A DNA stretch of 64,000 nucleotides from Crocosphaera watsonii WH 8501 (GTDB lineage Bacteria; Cyanobacteriota; Cyanobacteriia; Cyanobacteriales; Microcystaceae): the NCBI RefSeq assembly GCF_000167195.1, contig NZ_AADV02000003.1, positions 236,501 through 300,500 on the forward strand. Reading direction: 5' to 3'. Within the stretch, counting starts at the first letter, position 1, and each line of letters starts with the position of its first letter. The notes under the pieces were generated by a model that saw nothing but the letters and a program-made list of their open reading frames with translations, ran no database searches and was not told the origin of the DNA. A program made the position numbers and the translations under genes. Positions 45,128 to 56,552 of this stretch are shown in pieces.

Positions 45128-47299
45128 ATTAGGTTGAGTCGAGGGGAGCTATTATGCTCCGCCCCTCTCGTTTAGATCCGGACGTGCGTATTTCTACGCA
45201 TCCGGCTCCCGACAAATTAGACTTTTCCAGTCTTGCCCATGTGGATATATTGGTGACAGCTATGATGGACTGCCATTAAGTTTTTGGGTTTCCAATTATC
45301 GTGGTTTCCGTCTATGTGATGTAGGTGAACCCTCTCATCGTCCATAAACTTTAATCCACAATGTCCACATGAATGGTCTTGTCTTTTCAGACATTTAGAG
45401 GTTATTCCGTCATAGAGCTTGTTTTTACGCTTACTCCAGTAAACGGTGTCTCCGTCGTAGGGTGATTTATTTCCTTTGACGTTGACATGACGGTTTTCAC
45501 TATAAGGTACTGTTGGAAAAGCCTTCTTGATAAGTTCTGTTGCCGTGTGTCGGTTCAGTTTCTTTTCTTTGTTGAAGACTTTGAAGGCTTTATGTGATGT
45601 TCCCCATAAGGAGAAGCGAGAGCCGTCCAATTTACAATACCTGTGATAATTTCGCCATCCTCTTACTAGGGGGGCTAATTTCTTAGCTTTAACCCTAGCC
45701 CCATAATTCGAGCAGTTGACGATGTTTTTAACTTTCTTACGGAATGCTTTGTAATTGTCCTCTGATGGGACGCATCTGAACTTTCCGTTGGAATGTACTT
45801 TGAAGTGCCATCCTAGAAAGTCAAATCCATCTGTCGATTTGACTAACTTGGTTTTCTTTTCACTCACCTTTAGCCCTCTGTCCGCCAGGAATTCTTGAAT
45901 GTCTTTGAGTATCTTGTCTGCATCGTCTTTAGGCTTTAGAATAACAACCATGTCATCCGCATAACGGATGCTGCTGTGGATGTCTTCTATACCGTCCAAT
46001 GCGACGTTAGCTAATAGTGGACTTACCACCCCCCCTTGGGGGGTTCCTTGTTCTGGAAAGTGAGGGTTAACCCCTGCTTTCAGGCATCTCCATATACCTG
46101 TTTTTATTGTTTGTGGGGCAATTATCCTTTCCATAATAGAGGTGTGGTTTATCCTGTCGAAGCACTTTTCTATATCTAGCTCAAGTATCCTCTTATTTAC
46201 TCCTTTTGCGTGGGAGTTTAGATTGATTTGTAGAATCTTTTGAGCGTCGTGCGTTGAGCGTCCAGGTCTGAACCCGTAGCTTCTGGCGTGAAATAGTGCT
46301 TCATGGGCTGGTTCTAGGGCGTATTTAACGAGGCATTGCCACGCTCTGTCAGCCATAGTTGGAACCTTTAGCATTCTGGTTGTTCCGTCCTTTTTGGGGA
46401 TGGGTATTTCTCTCAGCTTTGAGTGTTTCCAGTCATGTGCTTTGAGTAACCTTTCTGCTAAGTCGAACCGTTGTTTGAGGTTGAGGGATTTTACCCCATC
46501 AATTCCTGCGGTCTTCTTACCAGTATTTAGCTGTGATACTTGTCGGACAGCGAGTAGTCTAGCTGCCTTGGATTTCAAGATAAGTTTCTGAAGATTCCTA
46601 GCTCGTCTAGTGTCTTCTGCTTGAATGGCTTTAAACAATCTTCTTTGGAGACGAAAAAGATTTCTGCGAAATTTCTTCCACGGAAGGCTTTTCCAGAGTT
46701 CACTAAAATCTTTGATTTTGTGTCTAACCATGTTCACCTCTGTTAATCGTTTTCTTTTTGCCTCGAAGCAATTACGCTTCGTCCTACCCGAATCTAGAGA
46801 GTTCCGCATCTCGTCTTGCCTACTCAGGGTTCGACTATCTCCTGAGACTCTAGATTCGTTTTTATTCGTTCCGTCCGATGATTGATTGTCCCTTTAGATG
46901 GAACCACTTTGACTATCGGAAACCCAAGGTCATGTCAGTCATAAGGGTAAGTGCTGACGGGTTACATTGCTCCGATGGGGTCAGGGGGTGCTATTCTTTC
47001 TGCTTTCCTGCCCTCAAGTAAGTCACTTTTCTAGGTTCTGTTTCATCATGGGGACTCCTGTAACGCCAGTGTCACCAGCAGTCGGTGTCTGATTGCATCC
47101 TATTCCCAGCTTCAGCCTCCAAAATTCCGAGTTTGGTCACTGTGGGTAGGTCTTGAGTCAGCCGTAACCTTCGGCGGTGGGACTTGCACCCACATCATTC
47201 GGACAGTTACTCAGAACCCCTTCTAGGGTATCTGAGCGAGTCACACGCTGTACCTTTGTCTAGGACTGGGTATCAGTTTTCTGACTCATCGAATCGCAC
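45128..47299 (-). mobile_element. Group II intron 1 (chloroplast-like class), complete
   Basis: The reverse strand starts GTGCGATTCG at 47299, a standard group II 5' end. It shows domain V as GAGCCGGATGCGTAGAAA followed by TACGCACGTCCGGATC at about 45208-45175, and ends CGACTCAACCTAAT at 45128. Length is 2172 bp. It encodes an intact RT-maturase-HNH protein. The 3' side joins in frame to the lectin-repeat protein. The 5' side (47300 onward) is not recognisably the same gene. The same-class intron 2 lies in nrdB at 49473-51843, with a matching 3' end CGACCCCTAAT. Confidence 0.85.
45217..46731 (-). CDS. ltrA: Group II intron reverse transcriptase/maturase with HNH endonuclease
   Basis: ATG at 46731 with a GAGGTG ribosome site gives 505 residues. 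RT blocks are ARSYGFRPGRSTHDAQK, LDIEKCFDRINH, TPQGGVVSPLLANVALDG and the catalytic SSIRYADDMVVIL. The maturase X domain has PLVRGWRNYHRYCKLDG. The C-terminal HNH endonuclease has CGHCGLKF, VHLHHIDGNHDN and HHSCHQYIHMG. All catalytic residues are present, so the protein should support both splicing and target-primed retrohoming. The longer upstream frame to 46809 is probably untranslated intron. Confidence 0.93.
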   Translation of the reverse strand: MVRHKIKDFSELWKSLPWKKFRRNLFRLQRRLFKAIQAEDTRRARNLQKLILKSKAARLLAVRQVSQLNTGKKTAGIDGVKSLNLKQRFDLAERLLKAHDWKHSKLREIPIPKKDGTTRMLKVPTMADRAWQCLVKYALEPAHEALFHARSYGFRPGRSTHDAQKILQINLNSHAKGVNKRILELDIEKCFDRINHTSIMERIIAPQTIKTGIWRCLKAGVNPHFPEQGTPQGGVVSPLLANVALDGIEDIHSSIRYADDMVVILKPKDDADKILKDIQEFLADRGLKVSEKKTKLVKSTDGFDFLGWHFKVHSNGKFRCVPSEDNYKAFRKKVKNIVNCSNYGARVKAKKLAPLVRGWRNYHRYCKLDGSRFSLWGTSHKAFKVFNKEKKLNRHTATELIKKAFPTVPYSENRHVNVKGNKSPYDGDTVYWSKRKNKLYDGITSKCLKRQDHSCGHCGLKFMDDERVHLHHIDGNHDNWKPKNLMAVHHSCHQYIHMGKTGKV

Positions 47300-49355: not shown

Positions 49356-49472
49356 ATGATTGTCACGAATCAAACGGAAATGCCCATCAATCCCATCTTT
49401 AACCCGGAAGGAGACGATGCCATTGAAAATCGTTCCATCTGGTTTGGTAATACCACAAACTTGATGCAATTA
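49356..49472 (+). CDS. nrdB: nrdB exon 1: ribonucleotide reductase small subunit, residues 1-39
   Basis: From ATG 49356 the 39 codons read MIVTNQTEMPINPIFNPEGD to FGNTTNLMQL and then meet GTGTGACTCG, the start of group II intron 2. Joined in phase to exon 2 at 51844, the protein is 352 residues, normal for a class Ia/Ib beta subunit. The junction reads NLMQL then NDVRYTWAVG. No other start is needed. The MITE ends 60 bp upstream. Confidence 0.88.
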
Positions 49473-51843
49473 GTGTGACTCGTTAAGCAACGAAGTATGC
49501 CTTTCTCAAGGGATACTTCGTTGCTTGTTAGGTTATGGTGACCTGAAAAAAACTAAATCTAGTTTGTGGGAGATTCTCAGAAAAACCCAAAAGATAAAAC
49601 AGGTACACCTAAAAAAACTAGGAATGCAAGGGAAATTCACAAAAGTTAATAGACTGATGTAGCAATCACCGAGTCAGCCCAGTAGGGACAACTGAACAGC
49701 ATATATACCTAGAAGACCTAATAACTGTTAATTAGTTGGCTAAAGGAGCCACATTCGGAATCAATGAAAAAAATTCAAAGAATGACGACACTTCTCCCAC
49801 ATTAGAAATTAGTAAAATCTAAAGTGAAGCGGGGATGAAAGCAAGAAACATTCTCAACACACAGAATGAGAACAATGCAAGTCAATTGGAAATGGTTAAC
49901 GAAAGTGAATCATCGAGAATCCCTCAATATCAAGAAGCAGCGAAAAGTGTGTTTGATACGCTGCGTTCAAAAGAACAAGGTGAAAAGTGGAGAAATAAAT
50001 TGGTCATCCACAGAGATTCCTAAAAGTAACCTGGGGGATAGATGGAACCTAAAACCAATAACACCCTAATTAACGGAACGAGTAAACCCCATGTCTGCTC
50101 TCATGGAAAGGTCGAATCAGATGAGTAGGAACAAACTATTACCGCAAGGGACATGGGGGTGAGATGCAGTAAGAAGCTAATGCCCATTTGTAATGAATGT
50201 GGATATGCCGACGTACTGCGGTTTAATCAGAAGAAATAGTTGTCATTAGTAATAAAAATGGAAAAAGCGAGTATAACCAAGACTACGAATTCATGGAACA
50301 CAATCAATTGGGCAAAAGTCCAAAGAAAGGTGTTTAAGTTACAAAAGCGAATATTTCAAGCAGTTAAATCGGGTAACAAAGTATTAGCAAGAAAGCTTCA
50401 AAAACTGTTATTCAAGTCCTACTATGCAAAGCTCTTAGCCATACGCCAAGTCACCAAAGAATCTTCCCTAACCTCCCTTACTAAAGGCGGTAGGAGAGAT
50501 GTCAAGGGGGCAGAAATTTGCGCCATCAAAGATAGAGCAATGCAAGCCCTGGTTAAATTAGCCTTAGAGCCATATTGGGAAGCCCAATTTGAGGAAACAT
50601 CTTATGGTTTTCGTCCAGGCAGAAGTGTCCATGATGCTATAGGTAGAATCTTACAAGTAATTGGGAACAAACCCAAGTATGTACTAGATGCTGATATAGC
50701 CGAATGGTTTGACAAGATTAACCATGATTACCTACTATCCAAAGTGGATTGTCCTTCAAACATCAAAAAAATCATCAAACAATGGTTAAAATCAGGTGTA
50801 ATGGACAACGGTGTATTTGCAGAAACGGAAAGTACAACATCACAAAAAGATGTTATAAGTCCGTTACTAGCAAATATTGCATTACATGGAATGATGAAAG
50901 AAGTTAGAGATAATTTTCCCAACTCAATAACGAGAGAAGGGAAAGCCATAAATAACTTCCAACCAACCATCATAAGATATGCCCATAACTTTGTTATTTT
51001 TCATAGAGATTATGAAGTTATAAAACAATGCAAAATATTGATTAGAAAGTGTTTGAAAAAATTAGGTTTAGAAATCGAAACAGAAAAAACCAAAATATGT
51101 CATAGTCTGAATGAAATAGAGATAAACGATCAAAAAGTAGAACCTGGATTTGACTTTCTTGGATTCAATATCAGACAATATCCAGTGGAAAAACACCATT
51201 CTGGAAGACATTATTATTCGGGTAAAAAATTCGGATTTAAGACAATCATCAAACCATCAGAAAAATCAATAAAAAACCACTATAAAAAATTGAGGGACAC
51301 AGTAGATAAATATAAAAAAGCCCCTCAATCCCGACTTATTATGGAATTAAACCCCATAATAAGAGGATGGTGTAATTATAACCGGGTAGTATGTTCTGGA
51401 AAAATTTTCAGTAAGATTGATCACTTACTATGGTGTAAACTTAGGGCTTGGACAGTGAACAGAACAGGCAAAGCTAACAAACAAAAATTAAGTAAATATT
51501 TTTCAGATGGAATACATGGTAAATGGACATTTCAGGATGGAGAATATTGCTTACTTAAACATGACAAAATTGAAATGAAACGTCATGTAATAGTAGAAAG
51601 CGATGCCTCACCCTATGACGGGAACTGGACATATTGGAGCAATAGAAAAATAAATTACCCAGAAACATTAACAAGAGTTACAGAACTTTTTAAGAAAGAG
51701 AAAGTATATGTAAACTCGGAGAAATGATGTAATGACTGTACCTATGACAAAGGCTGATTAAACTAGGAGCCGTATGAAGCGAAAGTTTCATGTACGGTTT
51801 TGAATGGGAGTTGTGACAGGTGACTATCACTTCGACCCCTAAT
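49473..51843 (+). mobile_element. Group II intron 2, inserted in nrdB; degenerate maturase
   Basis: The intron starts GTGTGACTCG at 49473. Domain V, GAGCCGTATGAAGCGAAAG with TTTCATGTACGGTTT, lies at about 51767-51802, and the intron ends CGACCCCTAAT at 51843. It is 2371 bp. Domains I-III occupy 49473-50257. At about 49660 a TAGCAATCACCGA segment resembles the end of the 2696 MITE. It encodes a maturase that has lost its RT centre and HNH domain. It must be removed for a working nrdB message, unless another copy of nrdB exists elsewhere. Confidence 0.88.
50258..51727 (+). CDS. Degenerate group II intron maturase, RT-dead
   Basis: From ATG 50258 the protein has ~489 residues. The RT catalytic motif YADD is replaced by YAHN (codons at 50978-50989) and PQGG by SQKD. 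About 60 residues of the RT fingers, between RQVTK and IKDRAMQALVKLALEPYWE, are replaced by a short unrelated segment with a palindromic repeat. The first RT aspartate remains in DADIAEWFDKINH. The X/maturase domain is kept: LNPIIRGWCNYNRVVCSG and WTVNRTGKANKQKLSKYFS. The HNH endonuclease is missing; the protein ends soon after SPYDGNWTYWSNRKINYP. I infer a maturase retained for splicing but unable to retrohome, analogous to plastid MatK. Confidence 0.88.
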   Translation: MEKASITKTTNSWNTINWAKVQRKVFKLQKRIFQAVKSGNKVLARKLQKLLFKSYYAKLLAIRQVTKESSLTSLTKGGRRDVKGAEICAIKDRAMQALVKLALEPYWEAQFEETSYGFRPGRSVHDAIGRILQVIGNKPKYVLDADIAEWFDKINHDYLLSKVDCPSNIKKIIKQWLKSGVMDNGVFAETESTTSQKDVISPLLANIALHGMMKEVRDNFPNSITREGKAINNFQPTIIRYAHNFVIFHRDYEVIKQCKILIRKCLKKLGLEIETEKTKICHSLNEIEINDQKVEPGFDFLGFNIRQYPVEKHHSGRHYYSGKKFGFKTIIKPSEKSIKNHYKKLRDTVDKYKKAPQSRLIMELNPIIRGWCNYNRVVCSGKIFSKIDHLLWCKLRAWTVNRTGKANKQKLSKYFSDGIHGKWTFQDGEYCLLKHDKIEMKRHVIVESDASPYDGNWTYWSNRKINYPETLTRVTELFKKEKVYVNSEK

Positions 51844-52785
51844 AATGATGTTCGTTACACATGGGCTGTTGGTTTGTATCAACAAATGCGAGAAAATTTT
51901 TGGATTCCACAAAGGTTGGATATTACTCAAGATGTAACAGATTACGGGAATTTAACCGATGATGAACGGTATGCTTACGATGGTATTTTGTCTTATCTTA
52001 CCTTTTTAGATTCCGTTCAAACTTGTAATATTCCTCATCTAAAAACTAGCATTACTGCCCCAGAGATTAGTCTTTGTATGGCAGAACAAATATCTCAAGA
52101 AGGAATGCACAACCAAAGTTATCAATATCTCATTGAAACAATTATTCCCCCTGAGAGAAGAACTCAAGTTTATGAATTTTGGCGTACTGATAAACTTTTA
52201 AGAGATCGCTGTGAGTTCATTGCTAAGTTGTATCAAAAGTACATTGATGATGCAACTACTGAGAACTATTTTATTGCATTGATGGCTGATTTTTTATTGG
52301 AAGGACTCTATTTTTATAATGGATTTATTTACTTCTATAATTTGGCCTCTCGGATGCTAATGCCAGGCTCTGCCGACATTTTTAAGATGATTAACCGCGA
52401 TGAGTTAAGTCATGTCAGACTGTATCAAAAATTAATTCCAGAAGCGAGGAAAGTTTTTCCTCATTCCGTTGAACAAATTTATGAAATGTTCGATATGGCG
52501 GTTAATTATGAATGTCGCTGGACTAATCATATTGTGGGTAACAATATCCTGGGTATTACTGAGTCGAGTACAGAAAAATATACTAAGTATTTGGCTAATA
52601 TTAGGTTACGATCTATTGGCTTAGAGCCTCTTTATCCTGAACCAAAATACAGTAAGAGTCCTTACACCCACTTAGAAAGGTTTTCTGATACCAAAAAAGC
52701 GGCACATACTAAAGCTAATTTCTTTGAAGCAACTGTTACCAGTTATGTCATGTCTTCTGGTTTAACGGGATGGGATGAAATTTAG
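51844..52785 (+). CDS. nrdB: nrdB exon 2: ribonucleotide reductase small subunit, residues 40-352
   Basis: Exon 2 carries the whole catalytic core of the subunit that makes the tyrosyl radical used to reduce ribonucleotides. Metal ligands and the radical tyrosine are visible: Asp in FLDSVQTCNIPH, then EGMHNQSY with the E-x-x-H-x-x-x-Y spacing (metal Glu, metal His, radical Tyr). Glu in LLEGLYFYNGF and Glu/His in NRDELSHVRLYQ follow. A short frame upstream inside the intron (from 51820) is not the true start. A hairpin follows downstream at 52816. Confidence 0.92.
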   Translation, partial: NDVRYTWAVGLYQQMRENFWIPQRLDITQDVTDYGNLTDDERYAYDGILSYLTFLDSVQTCNIPHLKTSITAPEISLCMAEQISQEGMHNQSYQYLIETIIPPERRTQVYEFWRTDKLLRDRCEFIAKLYQKYIDDATTENYFIALMADFLLEGLYFYNGFIYFYNLASRMLMPGSADIFKMINRDELSHVRLYQKLIPEARKVFPHSVEQIYEMFDMAVNYECRWTNHIVGNNILGITESSTEKYTKYLANIRLRSIGLEPLYPEPKYSKSPYTHLERFSDTKKAAHTKANFFEATVTSYVMSSGLTGWDEI

Positions 52786-54555: not shown

Positions 54556-56552
54556 CCCGGATTTTTCACAAATTAATTTGAAAGCCCAATCCAGAGATGA
54601 AAAATGATAATTTTTAGGACTAATAGAAATTTTGAATATAGATGAATAAAAAAATTGACTTTGATTATCCAAAAATTGAGTTTAAGAGGGAATAATTATA
54701 TTAACTTTTGATTTTCTCCACGATAAATAAGACTAAATGAAAGTATCAGTCAGTCAACAACTTATGATAGATATCTTTTTCAAAAAACAACTTATTCTAC
54801 TTATCCAGTATTAGGAATAGTTTTAATTCTTTTGTTAGCAATAGATAAAATATCTTGATAAGGACAAGCACCAGCTATAGCGATAATAATTCTTCTACAA
54901 CTAATCTTTATTCTGGCTCCCAACTTAAGAAGATTTAGACGTATTCTTCCCACAGTTGCTTTAGCCAATGAAATTTTTTTTAAACAGTGTTGACGAAAAG
55001 CATTTATGAGAACATAAGCCCAGGAATGTATCCATAATCTTAGTTGATTACTTTGAAATGTTTGAGTTGAAGTTCTATCAGCTAACAAGTCTAATTGTTG
55101 TTCTTTAATCCGATTTTCCATCTCGCCTCTCGGACAGTATTTTTTTGTATAAAGTTTTGAGGGTGGACTTTTTGAAGCGGGCAAAGATGTCACCACCTGG
55201 CGCATTTTTAAGCCATTACTTCCATAACAAACTTTTGTCACTACTCTTCTTTGACAACTCCATGACTTTTCTGTTTTATAACGAATAGAGCGATACCAAG
55301 TAGAAATTGGTACTAATTTTTTAACTTCTTCTAAATCTTCTTTTTTCTGAAATAAACTATCCATTAATTCAGTTATTGGAGCTAGTTTTTTTTCATATTC
55401 ATGTTTGGCTTTTTCAATTACATCATCCGCTCGTAACTTAAGAACGCCATTTGTTCCCATAGCTATAACATAATCAACTAAAGGCTGATTTTCACAAAAA
55501 TAGAAGATTTCTTCACGGGCATAGGCACTATCACCCCTAACTAGGATATGAGTCTCTGACCATTTTTCTCTAATTAGTCCGATAATTCTTTGTAATTCGT
55601 CTAAGGCTCCATCGGCTGGATCTACATTAGATGAACGAAGTTTAGCAACTAATAAATGATGCCCACAGAAAATATATAAAGGAGCATAACATACTCCGTG
55701 ATAATAACTATTAAAAAATGCCCCTTCTTGATTACCATGTACTTGGTCATCCGTGACATCCATATCTAATATAATACTTAAGGGAGGTTTTTTATAAGAC
55801 TCTAAAAAAAAATTCGACAAAAGATTTTTCAATGGCTTCAAAGTTGGGTTCTATTTTATGATAACGACTCGTTTTTTGGTCGAGAATAGTCTCAGGACAA
55901 TATTCCAATCTATTAATTGTACTTTTTCCAGCTAACCATCCCTTTTTATCTTCAAGTTCATTAAGCTTTTCTAAAGCGATCTTAAGGGCAGGATCGTGAC
56001 GTAATTTATCATGATCATTGACATCTTCATAGCCTAAAATAATTCCATAAAGCCTTTGTGCTAATAACTCATGAACGGAATGATCTACATAAGATTGATG
56101 ACGATGATCTTGAAAACAGTTACCAAACTTCTCCGTAATTCCCAGTTTTTTATCCAACTCAGCTATCCAGACAATCCCCGCATCTGAAGTGATTAGTCCC
56201 CCATCAAAATTAGCGATTATTTCTTTTCCTTTCTGTTTACTAAAGTTGATTACTTGACGAGGGGTTCGGGGATGACTGGGACTCATTAAATCAGTTTAAG
56301 GTAAATTGCTTTAATAATTAAATTATAGCATATTTTATTCTAACAATCTAGTACTATTAGAGATTTTATTAATAATTTTTTTGGAAAAATGAGTGATTGA
56401 TTTATCTTTTCATCTTTGTCTAATTCGGGTTGATTTTAACTTAAAATCTGACAACAGACTGTTGGTTGGGGAAATCTGCGATCGCTCTGTTCAAACCCAC
56501 TTCCTGTAAGGCTTCTGTGTTTGGCGATCGCAGATTTTGTGAGAAATTCGGG
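54556..56552 (-). mobile_element. IS1380-family element, copy 2 (inverted, transposase frameshifted)
   Basis: The 1997-bp element is nearly identical to copy 1 in the opposite direction. Its terminal repeat on the low-coordinate side is CCCGGATTTTTCACAAA (one change). Flanks are TATA and TATT, with no target duplication. The transposase (54801-56286) is broken by one extra A in GTCGAATTTTTTTTTAGA (GTCGAT in copy 1), giving pieces of 164 and 346 residues. It cannot make transposase but could still move in trans. Confidence 0.9.

Follow-up and report, generated by a model that had tools for sequence, protein, structure and literature searches.

In the 64,000-nt stretch of the Crocosphaera watsonii WH 8501 genome analysed here (the window; contig NZ_AADV02000003.1, positions 236,501 to 300,500), nrdB, the gene for the small subunit of a class I ribonucleotide reductase (RNR), has a group II intron inserted in it. 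The junction with the exons is exact and the RNA elements of the intron are intact, while its encoded protein has lost the reverse transcriptase (RT) motifs but keeps an open reading frame and the maturase domain X. From these features of the sequence we infer splicing, a dependence on the intron's own maturase and a loss of mobility. The probable and best explanation is that the intron is spliced with the help of a cis-acting, splicing-only maturase. The intron would be removed from the nrdB mRNA by chemistry carried out by the intron RNA, and the encoded protein, no longer an RT or an endonuclease, would have been retained as a maturase whose N-terminal RNA-binding part and domain X assist the folding and splicing of the intron that encodes it. 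As the small subunit of the only RNR found is encoded by the exons, selection would preserve the function of both the RNA and the maturase even as mobility decays.

The interrupted nrdB gene

Exon 1 (49,356..49,472, forward strand) contributes 39 codons and exon 2 (51,844..52,785, forward strand) carries the PF00268 match (225.9 bits), also scoring over the NF007184 cut-off. Joined in frame, they encode a 353-aa NrdB in which the intron falls after codon 39. A preliminary description of this DNA had proposed these exons and their in-phase joining to a full-length protein, and the alignment bears it out from end to end, since five uninterrupted NrdB proteins from sister Crocosphaera match the joined product from residue 1 to 353 with 95.5-97.2% identity. 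The predicted junction is exactly that of the uninterrupted gene in these genomes, and the comparison of the same locus in related strains, which the description had called for, revealed the empty site in four sister genes, with 105-109 of 120 nt identical around the junction. If the intron were not spliced out, translation of exon 1 would end at a TGA lying two codons beyond the exon boundary. Exon 1 is as constrained as exon 2 (nonsynonymous divergence, dN, 0.00-0.07 vs synonymous divergence, dS, 0.48-1.25), and its codon differences from the sister gene L054 are eight synonymous and no nonsynonymous.

The assembly searched is a 6.24-Mb draft in 323 contigs, scored 99.95% complete, whose nearest named relatives are Crocosphaera. 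An intact intron-less nrdB elsewhere in the genome had been set beforehand as the test capable of refuting the proposal; the PF00268 search of this assembly returned a single nrdB and no second copy. PF02867 also gave one match, identified as a class I NrdA by a TIGR02506 score above the cut-off, and neither an NrdD nor an NrdJ-type enzyme was matched in the assembly. Taking into account the single PF00268 match, the single class I NrdA and the absence of an NrdD match, nrdB is predicted to be essential.

The NrdA gene (L022:1438-4788, reverse strand; G000:C323 near 579837-582392) holds an in-frame LAGLIDADG intein, so that the only RNR found would depend on splicing for each of its two subunits, at the protein level for NrdA and at the RNA level for NrdB. 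In cyanobacterial relatives nrdB is a recurrent insertion target, with interruptions at codons 35/36, at codons 60/61 (a group I intron in L128) and at about codons 128, 200 and 225. An interruption at codon 39 was seen in no other nrdB examined.

The intron RNA

The intron spans 2,371 nt (49,473..51,843, forward strand; GTGTGAC...CCTAAT), its limits being given by the alignment of its 5' end with relatives, by the match of domains V and VI to Rfam family RF00029 and by the empty site in sister genomes. Its 5' end reads GTGTGACTCGTT, and the introns of relatives start GTGCGAYTCGTT. Domains V and VI (51,765..51,843, forward strand) align with those of relatives and score 54.3 bits with RF00029, whose gathering score is 40, within the 48.6-64.1 bits of relatives; the GTGTG start, domain V and AT end previously noted are thus all in place. 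The fold was checked, as had been suggested, against a consensus structure derived from an alignment of 17 introns without the nrdB intron; here 107 of the 113 consensus pairs are canonical, and relatives form 82-99%.

The pairings that would define the 5' exon are also found. Exon-binding site 1 (EBS1, AAATTG; 49,997..50,002, forward strand), located by alignment with relatives in the loop of a GTGGA/TCCAC hairpin, forms five of six pairs with intron-binding site 1 (IBS1, CAATTA; 49,467..49,472, forward strand), the final six bases of exon 1. In 16 relatives inserted at other sites, the same loop positions form 4-6 of six pairs with the local IBS1, and EBS1 of the nrdB intron forms at most four of six with the exons of those relatives. 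EBS2 (TATCAAG; 49,928..49,934, forward strand), in domain I, pairs over about six base pairs with IBS2 (CTTGATG; 49,460..49,466, forward strand), within exon 1, and the same alignment column also pairs in L133, L135, L149 and L156. The intron therefore has what is expected of a group II intron, i.e., a GUGYG 5' end, domains V-VI at its 3' end, a domain I-III fold in common with relatives and both EBS pairings, and its RNA looks able to splice. Neither a closer relative nor the same intron in another species was found among 98 relatives or 50 family members.

The intron-encoded protein

The intron-encoded protein (IEP) has 489 aa (50,258..51,727, forward strand), the ATG at 50,258 being its likely start from alignment with relatives. 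It matches RVT_N, RVT_1 and GIIM over the Pfam cut-offs, and reaches 262.9 bits with TIGR04416, under the cut-off of 300. The N-terminal RVT_N region is retained and domain X (51,269..51,502, forward strand) is matched by GIIM (PF08388) over 80 of 80 positions with 63.5 bits, the cut-off being 23.

The RT motifs, compared with those of 29 relatives, are in a different state. YAHN (50,978..50,989, forward strand) replaces the catalytic YADD present in all relatives but one, and TSQKDVISP (50,837..50,863, forward strand) replaces TPQGGVISP, of which TPQGG is found in 29/29 relatives. Motif RT3 (LDADIAEWFDK; 50,684..50,716, forward strand) retains its first Asp but has EW in place of KC, giving EWFD for KCFD. 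The HNH domain is absent, the frame ending ahead of the position at which it is found in close relatives. The change to YAHN, the loss of HNH and the retention of domain X agree with what had been described previously, but the loss of about 60 residues of the RT fingers has to be corrected to a net 35-36 with respect to relatives, with an approximate scar around residue 73 (50,474..50,479, forward strand; by alignment with relatives). Thus, the protein lacks the features of a retroelement form (YADD, intact palm motifs and HNH) and has those of a splicing-only maturase, namely lost RT motifs, a conserved N-terminal part and domain X, and an open frame.

Pattern of change in the maturase

The distribution of changes along the protein follows this division. 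Among the columns invariant in 25 relatives, 24 of the 82 in the RT part are changed (17 substitutions and seven deletions), as against none of 14 in the N-terminal part and one of 31 in domain X (together 1/45), a contrast that is significant with substitutions alone (Fisher p=0.0027). In leave-one-out controls, 0-3 RT columns are changed. Simulated neutral drift to the observed degree of change would be expected to introduce about nine stops, and the nrdB maturase frame has none; at 0.3 or more substitutions per codon, 0 of 300 runs were free of stops. A codon branch model gives, for the branch of the nrdB maturase, an omega of 0.16 over the whole protein and of 0.06 in domain X, neutrality being rejected for the branch as a whole. 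Since 23 of the 45 GIIM matches of the C. watsonii genome, about half, lie in frames shorter than 400 aa, decayed maturase copies usually break in this genome. The pattern of change of the nrdB maturase would therefore fit a splicing-only maturase, and is unlike that expected from neutral decay.

Alternative explanations

Several results weigh against this interpretation. The single mismatch between EBS1 and IBS1 lies at position -1. When the comparison is widened to 36 more diverse relatives, the contrast in substitutions between the RT part and the N-terminal part plus domain X keeps its direction but is weaker (12/63 vs 1/25, p=0.099). In the RT part, the omega of the branch (0.18) does not differ significantly from the background, and branch dN/dS, considered as a direct test of selection after the RT loss, was set aside as not decisive, since the branch spans earlier time and its synonymous sites are saturated. 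An AlphaFold2 model of the maturase, built from four sequences, was poor (pLDDT 52) and was left unused for fold searching. Finally, the C. watsonii genome contains intact related maturases that could splice the nrdB intron in trans.

This last point sustains the main rival explanation, according to which splicing is assisted by an intact maturase encoded in a related intron (or by the RT-dead maturase of the hup intron described below), the protein of the nrdB intron being a passenger that is decaying. The genome encodes several full-length relatives with YADD from the same subfamily, their proteins being 57-62% identical to the nrdB maturase and their intron RNAs about 70-73% identical to the nrdB intron, and trans-splicing by a related IEP has been documented in Trichodesmium and Thermosynechococcus (PMC4649490, PMC2882425). 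However, a passenger frame would be expected to have acquired stops and to have changed in domain X as fast as in the RT part, neither of which is observed, and the clearly decaying copies of this genome do carry stops or truncations (L136, L138 and the short frames mentioned above). We regard trans-splicing with a passenger protein as rather unlikely. The same relatives limit two earlier proposals. That the protein is a splicing-only maturase is supported by its RT loss, its conserved N-terminal region and domain X and its open frame, but the dependence of the intron on it is less secure while intact relatives are present; similarly, immobility is suggested by an own protein without RT motifs or HNH, but intact paralogues could move the RNA in trans.

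It could also be argued that the intron self-splices adequately without any protein, its open frame having been kept by chance after a very recent RT loss. All the RNA elements look intact, as this would demand; however, in vivo the related introns of bacteria as a rule depend on a maturase, and a very recent loss is a poor fit with 17 separate substitutions plus deletions at invariant RT positions, which makes protein-free splicing highly improbable. Slightly less credible still is that no spliced nrdB is expressed, the gene being a pseudogene, or having exon 2 translated alone, with another RNR supplying the cell. The assembly is a draft in many contigs, and a GTG-started frame of 321 aa spans intron domain VI into exon 2, but no further RNR was matched in this nearly complete assembly, and the strong constraint on exon 1 is not that of a pseudogene. 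A cis-acting maturase with a spliced intron, which is in turn backed by the parallel cases of an nrdB intron of another Crocosphaera (L060/L204) and of the hup intron, is therefore preferred.

RT-mutated maturases in other Crocosphaera genes

These cases come from a survey of the genus by GIIM profile search followed by inspection of the proteins. In Crocosphaera MO_199.B6 (L060/L204), nrdB contains two group II introns, at codons 35/36 and 60/61. The maturase at codon 35/36 (a 465-aa frame) has YADN, without TPQGG or HNH, and its finger deletion breaks RVT_N at profile position 56/83, as in the C. watsonii nrdB maturase. That at codon 60/61 has YADE and TPQGA, and retains HNH.

The gene for an HU protein, hup, is split at one same site in four Crocosphaera species (C. 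watsonii, G000; G002; G003; G007). In C. watsonii (L212, G000:C282:17500-22000; orthologues L211, L213 and L215) the intron occupies positions 426-2600 of the locus and the joined product matches uninterrupted orthologues of other species; a second, intact HU gene is present in this genome, and hup is therefore not the sole HU copy. In all four hup maturases the first catalytic Asp is missing (LDAD to LNGK, FKGK or FTGK), as are the PQGG motif and HNH, and the frames are open. Their omega is 0.33 (2dlnL of 128.6 against 1), with 0.27 for domain X alone, and the intron RNA is more conserved than its protein. For the nrdB maturase the evidence of purifying selection after the RT loss is indirect, but the omega of the hup maturases shows directly that selection maintains RT-dead maturases in Crocosphaera.

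A common origin of the RT-dead maturases of nrdB and hup was considered and rejected. The two cluster in the protein tree (UFBoot 98) but not in the tree of the intron RNAs, and their RT lesions differ; the clustering is therefore taken as long-branch attraction.

Considering the introns at codon 39 of nrdB in C. watsonii and at codons 35 and 60 of this gene in MO_199.B6, together with that of hup in four species, we lean somewhat towards the view that in Crocosphaera the group II introns of conserved genes repeatedly become splicing-only elements, stably inherited and with maturases that are RT-dead. If so, the genus would be a bacterial system for the transition from mobile to splicing-only introns known from organelles.

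Two further maturases of 582 aa, L216 (G003) and L218 (G002), have also lost a catalytic Asp (YANE and YAND, respectively); their frames are open and their contexts apparently different.

Comparison with known systems

Degenerate IEPs are a known kind in organelles, with few bacterial precedents, namely O.i.I2 and TeI4h. O.i.I2, the only bacterial example named in a 2015 review, is an ML-class intron in radC of Oceanobacillus iheyensis, whose open IEP lacks YADD and other motifs and for which a maturase function was proposed from the stop-free frame (PMC4424553). It shares with the nrdB intron a bacterial host, a location in a protein gene and an open IEP without YADD, but it differs in IEP class, phylum and host gene, and that source reports no orthologues conserved across species.

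TeI4h of Thermosynechococcus elongatus, whose structure (6me0) is the best solved structural match to the nrdB maturase, is a milder cyanobacterial case. It lies in an essential host gene (a tRNA), as nrdB is predicted to be, and also has a mutated RT site (YAGD), but this is a single active-site change in a protein with full fingers, and one change to YADD restores high mobility, whereas several motifs, 35-36 finger residues and HNH are gone from the nrdB maturase.

The parallel with MatK, encoded in the plant plastid trnK intron, had been drawn in the preliminary description and stands as an analogy of function and evolutionary route, not of descent, that gains weight from the RT-dead hup maturase common to four species. 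In both proteins the RT motifs have degenerated and domain X is retained, within a host gene that is essential for MatK and predicted to be so for the nrdB maturase. MatK, however, acts on several introns and can be aligned with RTs over motifs 5-7 alone (PMC4424553), whereas most of the RT fold still aligns in the nrdB maturase, for which cis action is the default assumption and whose origin would be independent.

A cyanobacterial RNR gene with group II introns is also found in Trichodesmium, where, as cited in PMC4649490 (Liu 2003, Meng 2005), a trans-acting IEP has been shown for the RIR and dnaN introns. These differ from the nrdB intron in insertion site and in being spliced in trans, and no RT-dead cis maturase is described for them in the sources consulted.

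What appears to be new is the host gene, the recurrence of RT loss, in part in parallel, in a single genus, and an instance passed on across species under selection that can be measured; no description of the Crocosphaera nrdB or hup introns was found in the open-access literature. The loss of mobility by an intron that retains its splicing maturase, common in organelles but known to the 2015 review from one bacterial example, is regarded as the step leading from the group II introns of bacteria to organellar and, further on, spliceosomal introns. As empty sites, intact relatives and decayed copies are all present, this transition can be studied in bacteria.

Other elements in the window

A second group II intron, with an IEP of another class, an intact YADD and an HNH-like end, lies at 45,133-46,809 on the reverse strand, and close copies of it are found elsewhere in the genome (L231, L230). 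At 54,801-56,286, on the reverse strand, two overlapping frames of 346 and 164 aa resemble a single transposase that a frameshift has disrupted.
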